Positions 11,161 to 55,436 of a stretch of 62,951 bases of DNA are shown here, piece by piece. The position numbers and the translations under genes are program-made. The notes under the pieces were generated by a model. The model was not told the origin of the DNA. It saw only the letters and a program-made list of their open reading frames with translations, and made no database searches. Position 1 is the stretch's first letter. The number at the start of each line of letters is the position of its first letter. The stretch comes from Succinatimonas sp. (GTDB lineage Bacteria > Pseudomonadota > Gammaproteobacteria > Enterobacterales > Succinivibrionaceae). The DNA is taken from NCBI GenBank assembly GCA_022779845.1, contig JALEXT010000051.1, forward strand, positions 1-62,951, given 5' to 3'.

Positions 11161-12699
11161 ATGGAAAAGAAGAAAACTTTTGCACTTATCATTATGGATG
11201 GCTGGGGAGATAATCCCAATAAAGAGTTCAATGCCGTTGCCGCAGCAAAAACTCCCAATTTGGATAAACTCACCGCTGAATATGCTCACACCGACATTCA
11301 GGCTTCAGGTACATATGTAGGTCTGCCTGAGGGTCAGATGGGCAACTCTGAAGTCGGTCACACCAATATCGGTGCCGGCAGAATCGTCTATCAGGAATTG
11401 ACCCGTATAACCAAAGCCATCGAAGACGGTGACTTCTTTAAAAACAAAGTACTGGTTGAAGCCGTTGATAAAGCTGTAAAAGCCGACAAAGCTGTTCACA
11501 TCATGGGATTGATGTCTCCCGGCGGAGTTCACAGTCACGAGCAACATATTGCTGCTATGATTAAGTTGGCAGCACAACGCGGCGCTAAAAAAATCTATTT
11601 CCACCCCTTCTTAGATGGTCGTGACGTTCCTCCGCGTTCTGCTCAGGGAGACATCGACTTCTTTGAAAAATTATTCAAAGAGTTGGGAGTAGGACGCATC
11701 GTTTCGATTATCGGTCGTTATTATGCGATGGATCGTGACAACCGTTGGGACCGTGTTCAGGCAGCCTATGATCTAATCACCGCAGCCAAGAGCGATTTTG
11801 CTCCTTTTGCTTCTGCAACTGAAGCATTAAAAGCAGCCTATGATCGTGATGAAAACGACGAATTCGTCAAAGCATCAGTTGTCGGTGAGCCTGTAAAGAT
11901 GGAAGACGGAGACAGCATGATCTTTATGAATTTCCGTGCTGATCGTGCCCGTCAAATTTCCCGTGCTTTTGTTAATTCAGATGATGAATTTAAGGGATTT
12001 AAACGTGCATACCGTCCTAAACTTGCAGATTTTGTGATGCTCACTCAATACGCTGCAGATATTAAGACCGCTTGTGCTTACCCTCCTGAGGATTTGGTCA
12101 ACACCCTGGGTGAATGGCTTTCTAAACACGGCAAGACTCAGTTACGTATATCTGAAACCGAGAAATATGCCCACGTCACCTTCTTCTTCAACGGTGGAGT
12201 AGAAACCGTATTTCCTGGTGAAGATCGTATTCTGGTTCAGTCTCCTAAGGTCGCCACTTATGATCTGCAACCTGAAATGAGTTCACAAGAACTGACCGAC
12301 AAACTCTGTAACGCTATCGAATCAGGAAAATACGATGTTGTCATCTGCAACTATCCTAACGGCGATATGGTCGGTCATACCGGTAAATTTGATGCTGCTG
12401 TTAAAGCTGTAGAAGCTGTTGATCACTGCATAGGACGCGTGGTTGAATCACTGAAGAAAGTAAATGGTGAATGCCTCATTACAGCAGATCACGGCAATTG
12501 TGAACGAATGAAGGATCTGACCACCGGTCAGCCTTATACGGCTCACACTAATTTACCTGTTCCTCTTATCTATGTAGGCAGAAAGGCAAAAATGAGACAA
12601 GACGGCCGTTTGTGCGATTTGGCACCGACCATTCTGTCTTTAATCGGCATGGAGCAGCCTAAAGAAATGACCGGAACTCCTATTGTGGAATTACAATAG
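11161..12699 (+). CDS. gpmI: 2,3-bisphosphoglycerate-independent phosphoglycerate mutase
   Basis: [53 protein letters not shown]. Confidence 0.95.
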
Positions 12700-52385: not shown

Positions 52386-54647
52386 ATGATTCGTTTCATA
52401 ATGAAGAGGGATGGGAGAAAAGTTGCTTTTAATGAGCAGAAAATCTCCAACGCGATCCGAAAGGCTTTGATCTCTGTTCACCCTGATGACGAAATTACCG
52501 TAGCAGACGAAAAAATAGTCTTAAAGCTTACCTCCATGGTTGTTGCCGATATTGAAAAAGAGCTTCCCAAGACACCGTCTGTCGAGCGCACCCAAGATCT
52601 TATTGAACAGGCCATGATTAAATCAGGTCTTGCTTCTGAAGCCAAAAATTTTATCCTTTACCGTCAGCGTCGCACCAATGCACGTACTTACAATGCAGAT
52701 CTGACCAAGATTTATAGAGATCTGACTTCGAAGAGTACTGCAGATATGGATCTTAAGCGAGAGAACGCCAATATTGATGCCAATGCCCCTATGGGATTGA
52801 TGTTGAGATTCGGTTCTGAAGGTGCGAAGGATTACGTTAAGCGTTATGTTTTGCGCCCGGAGCATGCTTTGGCTCATGCACGCGGTGATATTCATATTCA
52901 CGATTTGGATTTCTATCTTTTAACAATTAATTGTTGCCAAATAGGTCTTAAGGATCTGTTCAAGCGTGGTTTTTCAACAGGGCACGGTTTTTTACGCGAA
53001 CCTCAGTCAATTCAGTCTGCCGCCGCTTTATGCTGTATAGCTATTCAGTCAAATCAGAATGACATGCATGGCGGTCAGTCTATTCCTATGTTTGAGTATG
53101 ATCTTGCACCTTATGTGGCCAAATCATACATAAAACATGTAGGCAAGGTTATGGAGATTTGCTTAAGACGTGAGCAAATGGATATTTCCTCGCTAAAGAG
53201 CTTTTGTAATGAGCTTTATGAAGTAAAAGGCACTTTGTTAGATAAAGAGGCACAGCAAAAGATTCAGGAATTTGTGGAGCAGGAATTAGTACAGCTAGGA
53301 TCCAATGATGCCAAGGCTGATGCTTCATATGTCATGATGGAATCTTTAAAGCTTACGCAGCGTGAAACTTATCAGGCAATGGAAGCGCTGATACACAACT
53401 TAAATTCCATGCAATCGCGAGCAGGTGCTCAGGTACCTTTTTCTTCGATCAATTACGGAACTGGAACTACTGCCGAACAACGCATGATCATGAGGAACGT
53501 GTTGTTGGCAACAGACGCCGGTTTGGGCGGTGGTGAAACTCCGATTTTTCCGGTTCAGATTTTTAAAGTAAAGGACGGAATTAATACCAAAGCAGGTGAT
53601 CCTAATTATGATCTTTTCAGATTAGCATGCAAAGTTTCTGCTAAACGTCTTTTCCCTAATTTTTCCTTCTTAGACGCACCTTTTAATATTAAATATTACA
53701 AGGAAGGACATCCTGAAACAGAAGTTGCTTTGATGGGATGTCGTACCCGTGTAGTATCTAATGATTTTGATAAAACCAAGGAAATTATTCCCGGGAGAGG
53801 CAATTTGTCATTTACGTCAGTGAATCTGCCTAGACTCGGTATCGAAGCCCACGGTTCGCTCAGCAGATTCTATACTTCGGTTGACAGAACCTTTGCCATG
53901 GTTTTTGAACAATTGAAGGATCGTTTCGACATTATTGCAAAGAAACGAGTATTGAATTATCCGTTCTTAATGGGACAGGGAATTTGGATTGGTTCAGATA
54001 AGCTTGATCCTGAAGATTATATTGAAGATATCATCAAGCATGGAACTATGTCGGTTGGTTTTATCGGTCTTGCCGAATGTCTCAAAGCATTAGTCGGCAA
54101 ACATCACGGTGAAAGTTCTGAAGCAAACGAATTAGGTCTTGAAATTGTAAGGCATATGCGAGAGCTGACAGACAGACATACTCAGGAAACAGGACTTAAT
54201 TTTTCGCTTTTTTCAACTCCGGCAGAAGGTTTATCAGGTCGTTTTGTAAAGATTGATCAGCAGTTATATGGAAAGCTCACCGGAGTTACAGACAGAGCTT
54301 ATTACACCAATAGCTTCCACGTTCCTGTTTATTACGATATATCGGCAGCAGATAAGATTAAAATAGAAGGTCCTTATCATGAATTATGTAATGCCGGTTC
54401 TATCTCTTATGTTGAATTGGACGGTGACTTGACTAAAAATGTCGATGCATTTGAAAAAGTTATTTTATATATGAAGCAATGTGGTGTCGGCTATGGATCG
54501 GTCAACCATCCTGTGGATCGTTGCCCCGTATGCAATTATGTAGGGGTTATAAATGATGTTTGTCCTCGTTGTGGTAGACGAGACGGAGAAGGGATCAGCA
54601 TCGAACGTTTAAGACGACTTGGTGTTGACTGCAGTTGCTTTGATTAG
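52386..54647 (+). CDS. nrdD: Anaerobic (class III) ribonucleoside-triphosphate reductase large chain, lacking the C-terminal glycyl-radical segment
   Basis: ATP-cone MKRDGRKVAFNEQKISNAIRKAL; IHDLDFY; C-terminal Zn ribbon CPVCNYVGVINDVCPRCGRRDGEG, then LRRLGVDCSCFD stop. Confidence 0.93.
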   Translation: MIRFIMKRDGRKVAFNEQKISNAIRKALISVHPDDEITVADEKIVLKLTSMVVADIEKELPKTPSVERTQDLIEQAMIKSGLASEAKNFILYRQRRTNARTYNADLTKIYRDLTSKSTADMDLKRENANIDANAPMGLMLRFGSEGAKDYVKRYVLRPEHALAHARGDIHIHDLDFYLLTINCCQIGLKDLFKRGFSTGHGFLREPQSIQSAAALCCIAIQSNQNDMHGGQSIPMFEYDLAPYVAKSYIKHVGKVMEICLRREQMDISSLKSFCNELYEVKGTLLDKEAQQKIQEFVEQELVQLGSNDAKADASYVMMESLKLTQRETYQAMEALIHNLNSMQSRAGAQVPFSSINYGTGTTAEQRMIMRNVLLATDAGLGGGETPIFPVQIFKVKDGINTKAGDPNYDLFRLACKVSAKRLFPNFSFLDAPFNIKYYKEGHPETEVALMGCRTRVVSNDFDKTKEIIPGRGNLSFTSVNLPRLGIEAHGSLSRFYTSVDRTFAMVFEQLKDRFDIIAKKRVLNYPFLMGQGIWIGSDKLDPEDYIEDIIKHGTMSVGFIGLAECLKALVGKHHGESSEANELGLEIVRHMRELTDRHTQETGLNFSLFSTPAEGLSGRFVKIDQQLYGKLTGVTDRAYYTNSFHVPVYYDISAADKIKIEGPYHELCNAGSISYVELDGDLTKNVDAFEKVILYMKQCGVGYGSVNHPVDRCPVCNYVGVINDVCPRCGRRDGEGISIERLRRLGVDCSCFD

Positions 54648-54727
54648 AGAATAGATTTTTTCTCATTTAATTATTTTTCCCGCCTTGATGCGGTATCTTG
54701 CATATATTGTTTTGAGGAGTGATGGCT

Positions 54728-54886
54728 ATGCAATCAAGATTACATGCTCATAATGGAGTGGTTGGTGAAGGTGTTAAATTTGAGCGTATCAGAAGAGTGA
54801 CCGGGTATTTGGTCGGTACTCTGGATCGTTTTAACAATGCCAAAAGAGCTGAAGTAAACGATCGTGTTAAACATATGCATGTATGA
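54728..54886 (+). CDS. 52-aa protein equivalent to the NrdD C-terminal glycyl-radical segment
   Basis: MQSRLHAHNGVVGEGVKFERIRRVTGYLVGTLDRFNNAKRAEVNDRVKHMHV; SD GAGGAG at 54714-54719; compare the RRVCGYL...KQEEVKRRVKH tail of E. coli NrdD (from memory). In-frame ATG also at 54722. Confidence 0.85.
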   Translation: MQSRLHAHNGVVGEGVKFERIRRVTGYLVGTLDRFNNAKRAEVNDRVKHMHV

Positions 54887-54893
54887 GTAAGCC

Positions 54894-55436
54894 ATGTCTG
54901 ATCTGGATATTCTGGATCAAACCACTTTGAGAATTGCCGGGGCCGTTCAGGAATCAATCGTTGACGGCCCCGGCATTCGTTACGTGATCTTCACGCAAGG
55001 TTGCCCTTTTCACTGTAAGGGGTGTCATAACCAGCAATCATGGGATTTTAACGGTGGTTTGGAAGTTCGTCTTAAGGTTTTGTATGACGAAATGAAGCGT
55101 GATCCTCTGGTAGGCGGTGTAACCTTTTCCGGTGGAGAACCTTTTATACAACCAAAACCTTTGACAGTATTTGCAAAAATAGTTAAAGCTCAGGGGTATT
55201 CTTTGTGGTCGTATACCGGATTCACTTTTGAAAAATTATTGGATAATCCCGATAGAAAAGCATTATTAGAACAACTTGACGTAGTAGTAGATGGTCAGTT
55301 TATTCTTTCAAAAAAGTCTTTAGATCTTGATTTCAGAGGTTCATCAAATCAACGCATTATCGATGTACAACAATCGCTGAAAACAGGAAAAATCGTTTTA
55401 GCTTCTGGTTTTGTGGGAGAGCGTGATAACAAATAG
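54894..55436 (+). CDS. nrdG: Anaerobic ribonucleotide reductase-activating protein (radical SAM)
   Basis: QGCPFHCKGCHN (CxxxCxxC), GGVTFSGGEPF. Confidence 0.94.
   Translation: MSDLDILDQTTLRIAGAVQESIVDGPGIRYVIFTQGCPFHCKGCHNQQSWDFNGGLEVRLKVLYDEMKRDPLVGGVTFSGGEPFIQPKPLTVFAKIVKAQGYSLWSYTGFTFEKLLDNPDRKALLEQLDVVVDGQFILSKKSLDLDFRGSSNQRIIDVQQSLKTGKIVLASGFVGERDNK

Follow-up and report, generated by a model that had tools for sequence, protein, structure and literature searches.

Can a class III ribonucleotide reductase (RNR) work when the glycine that stores its radical is encoded by a separate gene? To our knowledge, every class III RNR studied so far carries its radical glycine on the catalytic chain. 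The window, the whole stretch of 62,951 nucleotides of Succinatimonas sp. DNA analysed here, contains an nrdD gene for the large chain, a gene for a small peptide with a glycyl-radical motif (the mini-gene) and the activase gene nrdG, in that order:

52386..54647, + strand: nrdD core, class III (anaerobic) ribonucleotide reductase large chain, 753 aa (NF005497, PF13597)
52395..52676, + strand: ATP-cone (allosteric activity domain), NrdD residues 4-97 (PF03477, 60.8 bits)
53739..53741, + strand: codon of the presumed thiyl-radical Cys452, MGCRTR, in the finger loop (assigned by homology)
54522..54572, + strand: zinc ribbon CPVC...CPRC, Cys713, 716, 726 and 729 (motif in sequence)
54573..54644, + strand: truncated NrdD tail GRRDGEGISIERLRRLGVDCSCFD (alignment to fused NrdDs)
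54714..54719, + strand: Shine-Dalgarno GAGGAG of the mini-gene, 8 nt before the ATG (sequence)
54728..54886, + strand: mini-gene, the NrdD glycyl-radical peptide on its own, 52 aa (PF13597 532-562, NF005497 710-744)
54803..54805, + strand: codon GGG, radical glycine Gly26 in RVTGYL (phmmer alignment to 8p23_A)
54894..55436, + strand: nrdG, radical-SAM activase, 180 aa (TIGR02491 NrdG, 156 bits against a cut-off of 126)

The features of a class III RNR are all met in the core with its ATP-cone, the finger-loop cysteine, the zinc ribbon and the NrdG-type activase, except that the glycyl-radical motif is not on the same chain and is found on the 52-aa chain. In profile searches NrdD scores 1016 bits against NF005497, above the cut-off, covering positions 1-718 of 746, and it covers positions 1-538 of 562 in PF13597. 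The protein is 76-84% identical to its counterparts in same-genus genomes, the Cys452 column is invariant in an alignment of 44 NrdDs, and the zinc-ribbon motif (CxxC-x9-CxxC) is retained by all split NrdDs of Succinivibrionaceae. The glycyl-radical segment is absent, with no RxxGY motif in the 753-aa chain, whose C-terminus reads ...CPRCGRRDGEGISIERLRRLGVDCSCFD before a stop 24 residues past the last zinc-ribbon cysteine. Within this tail, SIERLRRLG is similar to the strand found ahead of the radical glycine in fused enzymes (7 of 2000 shuffles score as high). As a separate observation, the C-termini of many truncated NrdDs carry cysteine pairs (CIC, CSC, CGYC, CFCC), as at 54627-54644 of the window and in the tails of L061-L088, L115 and L324-L332; these ends are not universal and resemble the reducing tails of class I/II RNRs.

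The small protein supplies what the large one lacks, as the two match complementary parts of PF13597 and NF005497. It aligns (phmmer) with residues 707-739 of the P. copri NrdD 8p23_A, pairing Gly26 with Gly711, which is the radical glycine of that enzyme in its published numbering (PMC11226230). At the nrdD-adjacent position the mini-protein is 74-96% identical in approximately 30 species, and its match to the NrdD tail is far from chance. Chromosomal and phage copies alike show almost no variation in the motif RR[IV]TGYL and the tail N..K..E...R.KH, as is also true of fused enzymes. Furthermore, the radical glycine is present in all 131 distinct chromosomal, phage and Bacillota stand-alone copies examined, a count for which the search patterns were biased toward glycine-bearing copies. 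The top matches of the mini-protein in NCBIfam, Pfam and PHROGs are only the ends of full-length NrdD models, which means that none of these collections has a family for the peptide itself.

Most of this layout had been recognised in the initial annotation. Its claim that NrdD stops after the zinc ribbon without a radical motif is borne out by the sequence and by profile coverage, and the separate 52-aa reading frame that it took for the glycyl-radical tail is exactly the profile segment absent from NrdD. The proposed Shine-Dalgarno of the mini-gene and the start of nrdG 7 bp past the mini-gene end were both confirmed at the positions listed above. A gap of 74 bp had been given between the two NrdD parts; this is correct for an in-frame ATG at 54722 and incorrect for the ATG at 54728, which lies 80 nt from the NrdD stop.

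The identical NrdD break was found at 30 of 30 neighbouring loci examined in Succinivibrionaceae, and a common stop position is shared by the 23 family genomes that match the split-type NrdD and by approximately 28 named loci. In these the order nrdD, mini-gene, nrdG is seen wherever the contig extends far enough, and isolates such as Succinatimonas hippei, Succinivibrio faecicola and Anaerobiospirillum succiniciproducens are among them. Across the 30 loci the gap between nrdD and the mini-gene varies from 18 to 360 nt, the two are in frame at 13 (about 10 are expected by chance), and a purine-rich ribosome-binding site precedes the mini-gene ATG in nearly all. The median dN/dS of the mini-gene over Succinivibrionaceae loci is 0.046, taken from the 159 of 435 pairs with unsaturated dS. 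Searching a sample of 274 gammaproteobacterial genomes at E<=1e-6 gave no mini-peptide except the window's own, and for these sampled genomes the restriction of the split form within Gammaproteobacteria to Succinivibrionaceae holds.

Two NrdD lineages coexist within Succinivibrionaceae, as genomes of other genera (G022-G028, G034) lack the split type and have a fused NrdD of the E. coli type. A second, distant NrdD-like reading frame of 513 aa is also present in one genome of the family (L168, G019:C4:9531-10862), 34% identical to residues 240-712.

Dependence on the split form was assessed with PF02867, a profile that covers class I and class II RNRs. The window's genome gave no match to it, and neither did 17 of the 18 other genomes of the genus. 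One of these is G015, a single 3.5-Mb contig, 99% complete, with one NrdD, split, and two mini-peptide copies. Since no other RNR was detected in this single-contig genome, the split form must work there, and the G015 cell has no other detectable route to de novo deoxyribonucleotides. The absence of other RNRs is weaker evidence in the window's genome, a draft of 213 contigs that is 89% complete. This sole-RNR status in G015 is indirect support for NTP reduction and glycyl-radical storage, both of which are inferred.

The possibility that the split is confined to Succinivibrionaceae was ruled out, as it is also present in Bacillota. Among 300 sampled Bacillota genomes, 113 match the radical tail at E<=1e-4, and approximately 12 of the sampled genomes have a stand-alone copy as their sole such match. 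Eight of these 12 lack a class I/II RNR, including the near-closed G603 and G554, where the split NrdD is the only RNR found. The arrangement varies: the order nrdD, mini-gene, nrdG is kept with a short peptide (L299-L302) or with a peptide that has an added N-terminal domain of about 58 aa (L303, L304), or the mini-gene and nrdG lie together at a distance from nrdD (L305-L309 with L331-L335), which in G554 amounts to approximately 430 kb. The short-peptide form is found in the named human gut species Subdoligranulum variabile. The extra N-terminal domain, about 55-60 aa before the radical motif, is seen in many stand-alone copies (L285-L294, L303-L310 and the viral L217, L220, L230, L232, L235, L238, L239), and its role is unknown. 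Other Bacillota (L311-L317 in G404, G558, G583, G388, G430 and G506) have a RITGYLS-type fused NrdD together with one or two stand-alone copies of 85-168 aa from stop to stop, which are candidate true spare parts.

The closest uninterrupted homologues are Clostridial NrdDs, 51-61% identical, and since these related Clostridia are uninterrupted, the split is a derived state. In a phylogeny of 86 NrdD cores, well-supported branches force four changes between the split and the fused state, with the caveats that re-fusions are possible and the placement of some long branches is unsure. The split state is present in several Bacillota lineages, and the tree calls for no fewer than four changes. In G421, NrdD ends ...FERIHRITE, that is, with the pre-glycine strand and a stop at the glycine's place; none of 2000 shuffles matches the alignment score of this strand, and nrdG follows next with no tail remnant. 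We infer that the main gene lost its tail only after a spare-part gene had arisen. A vestigial strand in all split NrdD tails could not be upheld, being clear in G421 only, moderate in the window and L324 and not significant in most others.

Many Succinivibrionaceae have one to three more mini-gene copies. A second mini-gene occupies a conserved chromosomal place with the same flanking genes in about ten species of the Succinivibrio group (L157-L160, L162, L147, L151, L152, L154, L163), where the flanks are a 559-aa membrane protein and a porin-like gene. Other extra copies are in prophages, and that of G002 lies in a stretch with genes identical to an IMG/VR contig. Stand-alone copies are frequent in contigs of gut phages: scanning IMG/VR gave 153 related stretches, of which 80 were kept, about 75 of them encoding the peptide alone; baseplate and tail genes (PHROGs) adjoin several of the viral mini-genes. 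At 72 of the 80 viral loci, the sequence retrieved (up to about 12 kb) contains neither nrdD nor nrdG, so the phage peptides probably use the NrdD and NrdG of the host. It is likely, from sequence and context only, that the phage copies are spare parts keeping the host NrdD working, a role that is inferred.

Four viral contigs have their own split NrdD (L211, L223, L229, L236). That of L223 (record shared with L319) is broken between RAGAQV and PFSSLN, where about 260 bp containing a stop intervene (11298-11555, minus strand); this may be an intron or other insertion and had no Rfam match. Another IMG/VR contig (L320/L321), with a ParA-like gene, has a split NrdD whose end overlaps the mini-gene reading frame, and is possibly a plasmid or phage-plasmid.

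A structural model was obtained from L085, where both reading frames are in frame with one TAG between them, and reading through it gives an artificial fusion. This pseudo-fusion is a modelling device and makes no claim of readthrough in the cell. AlphaFold2, run with an alignment of fused homologues only, gave a mean pLDDT of 84.5, with 72-87 in the radical segment and below 50 in the linker. The model aligns to the P. copri and T4 NrdDs in Foldseek, the closest solved relative being P. copri 8p23. The alignment to 1h7a has 672 columns, compared to 614 with an earlier model whose alignment had put the pre-glycine strand on the wrong chain and left the radical segment uninformative. With moderate confidence, the predicted structure is compatible with the peptide in the normal tail position, and no more than that, being an artificial single chain that does not address two-chain binding.

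The split enzyme is real and conserved, and it is almost certainly functional. We further consider it highly probable that it is a two-chain class III RNR with its radical glycine acting in trans and the separate peptide as the obligate copy, although docking, activation by NrdG and radical transfer are inferred and no biochemistry is available. The 753-aa chain would supply the ATP-cone, catalytic barrel, finger-loop cysteine and zinc ribbon, and the 52-aa chain the radical-storing glycine and the C-terminal tail. NrdG would install the radical on Gly26 of the small chain, which would then dock in the barrel at the site of the C-terminal segment of a normal NrdD, and the radical would cross between the chains to Cys452 at each turnover. 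Oxygen cuts glycyl-radical enzymes at the glycine site. As the break lies just before the glycine, at the place of oxygen cleavage, the large chain resembles a genetically pre-cleaved enzyme, and oxygen damage would then cost just one 52-aa peptide. The extra chromosomal and phage copies would most simply be spare parts for the host NrdD.

Several other explanations have to be weighed against this. A decaying gene, or a sequencing or assembly error, with another RNR making the dNTPs, might be suspected from the uninterrupted nearest Clostridial homologues and from the 213-contig draft in which the window lies. However, the identical break recurs in approximately 28 independently sequenced species, isolates included, the mini-gene has a dN/dS of 0.05 and a one-contig genome has no other RNR; conservation, selection and sole-RNR status thus refute local decay or error, which is left with a negligible chance of being right. 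The initial annotation had likewise argued against a simple decay frameshift, and the break kept across the family with a median dN/dS of about 0.05 agrees with it. It had proposed checking related genomes for the same break, which each family relative with this type of NrdD shows, and had named an uninterrupted NrdD in relatives or a second full-length nrdD elsewhere as refutations. The former was not found within the clade, the uninterrupted NrdDs being those of the related Clostridia outside it, and the latter was not found in the window's genome or the single-contig relative. A fused product, its remaining refutation, could still be made by stop-codon readthrough, programmed frameshifting or protein splicing, and in favour of this stands L085, with its single TAG between two in-frame reading frames. 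Yet the genes are in frame at only 13 of 30 loci with gaps of up to 360 nt, the mini-gene ATG has its own ribosome-binding site, and no intein or splicing domain appeared in the scans against protein-family profiles. Readthrough or a single frameshift is ruled out at most loci and where the genes are about 430 kb apart in another lineage, and fusion was rejected on frames, gaps and distant loci as extremely improbable. The interpretation made in the initial annotation is therefore supported, with docking in trans inferred.

A different role for the small protein is a further alternative. The truncated NrdD might be active without a glycyl radical while the small protein does something else, such as regulating or inhibiting NrdD or occupying NrdG. 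Trans catalysis has no direct test, and inhibition or decoy action by the phage copies is possible in principle. We regard such a role as very unlikely, since the radical motif and tail vary as little in chromosomal and phage copies as in fused enzymes, and the mini-gene adjoins nrdG in several lineages even when far from nrdD. Trans action of the radical peptide is the best-supported reading and has not been shown. Why the split exists is a further matter, on which a neutral accident is compatible with a two-chain enzyme: once a spare-part gene had arisen, the split could have been fixed by drift with no advantage in oxygen tolerance, and the phage copies could be passengers. Several origins near one point, expected if a redundant tail is soon lost, and the vestigial strand in the G421 NrdD favour such an account, but the strict maintenance, the recurrence in phages that infect different hosts and the conserved synteny of second copies suggest a benefit, and we hold the neutral account to be possible though improbable.

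Returning to the two-chain enzyme, we lean, with some reserve, towards the broader view that the glycyl radical of class III RNRs is an exchangeable, consumable cartridge, that anaerobes from two phyla or more owe all their dNTPs to a separate radical peptide, and that gut phages widely bring their own, keeping or making the host NrdD active during infection. If true, this would add a new class to the metabolic genes of phages and would be the first case of a spare part serving a glycyl-radical enzyme besides pyruvate formate-lyase (PFL). An obligate two-chain form would establish that an essential enzyme can use a radical segment in trans, and the installation, docking and transfer of the radical could then be studied one step at a time. 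The findings also point to a widespread small phage gene without its own family in Pfam, NCBIfam or PHROGs. No description of a split or spare-part NrdD was found in the open-access literature searched, which did not cover most subscription papers or bioRxiv preprints. Andorfer et al. noted that validation exists only for YfiD and Y06I and that other glycyl-radical enzymes may have spare parts too (PMC8683613), an open question on which the present locus bears.

Compared to canonical NrdD/NrdG systems (P. copri, T4, S. thermophilus, E. coli), the window's system shares the ATP-cone, barrel, finger-loop cysteine, zinc ribbon, radical motif and adjacent activase, and differs in having the radical segment on another polypeptide and gene. 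The glycyl-radical domain of the P. copri NrdD is highly mobile (PMC11226230), which makes a non-covalent form plausible. The split class II RNR NrdJa/NrdJb is likewise encoded as two chains (PMC9669993), but it is a cobalamin enzyme with another break in another domain and no glycyl radical; the cobalamin RNR fold expected of a member is lacking, PF02867 having no match in the window's genome. Aminoacyl radical enzymes also depart from the standard glycyl-radical design, in their case by replacing the glycine with Ala, Ser or Thr within one chain (PMC11528403). The mini-protein meets the description of a GrcA-type protein in being small and stand-alone, with the motif RVTGYL and its own start and ribosome-binding site. 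Membership in GrcA/YfiD was nevertheless rejected for lack of homology to the PFL C-terminus, as profile searches gave matches to NrdD models and none to the GrcA model or PF01228. YfiD/GrcA and phage T4 Y06I remain alike in kind, being small stand-alone copies of the C-terminal radical segment of a large enzyme that provide the radical in trans (PMC8683613, PMC12338860), one of them found in a phage, as the mini-peptide is. GrcA provides PflB G734A with a glycyl radical in trans in E. coli in vivo (PMC12338860), and this rescue of a glycine-less PflB shows that a glycyl-radical enzyme can be served by a radical residing on a separate small protein. Whereas YfiD/GrcA and Y06I serve PFL, whose gene is full-length, the partner of the mini-peptide is a class III RNR without the segment, and the peptide is the sole source of the glycine.
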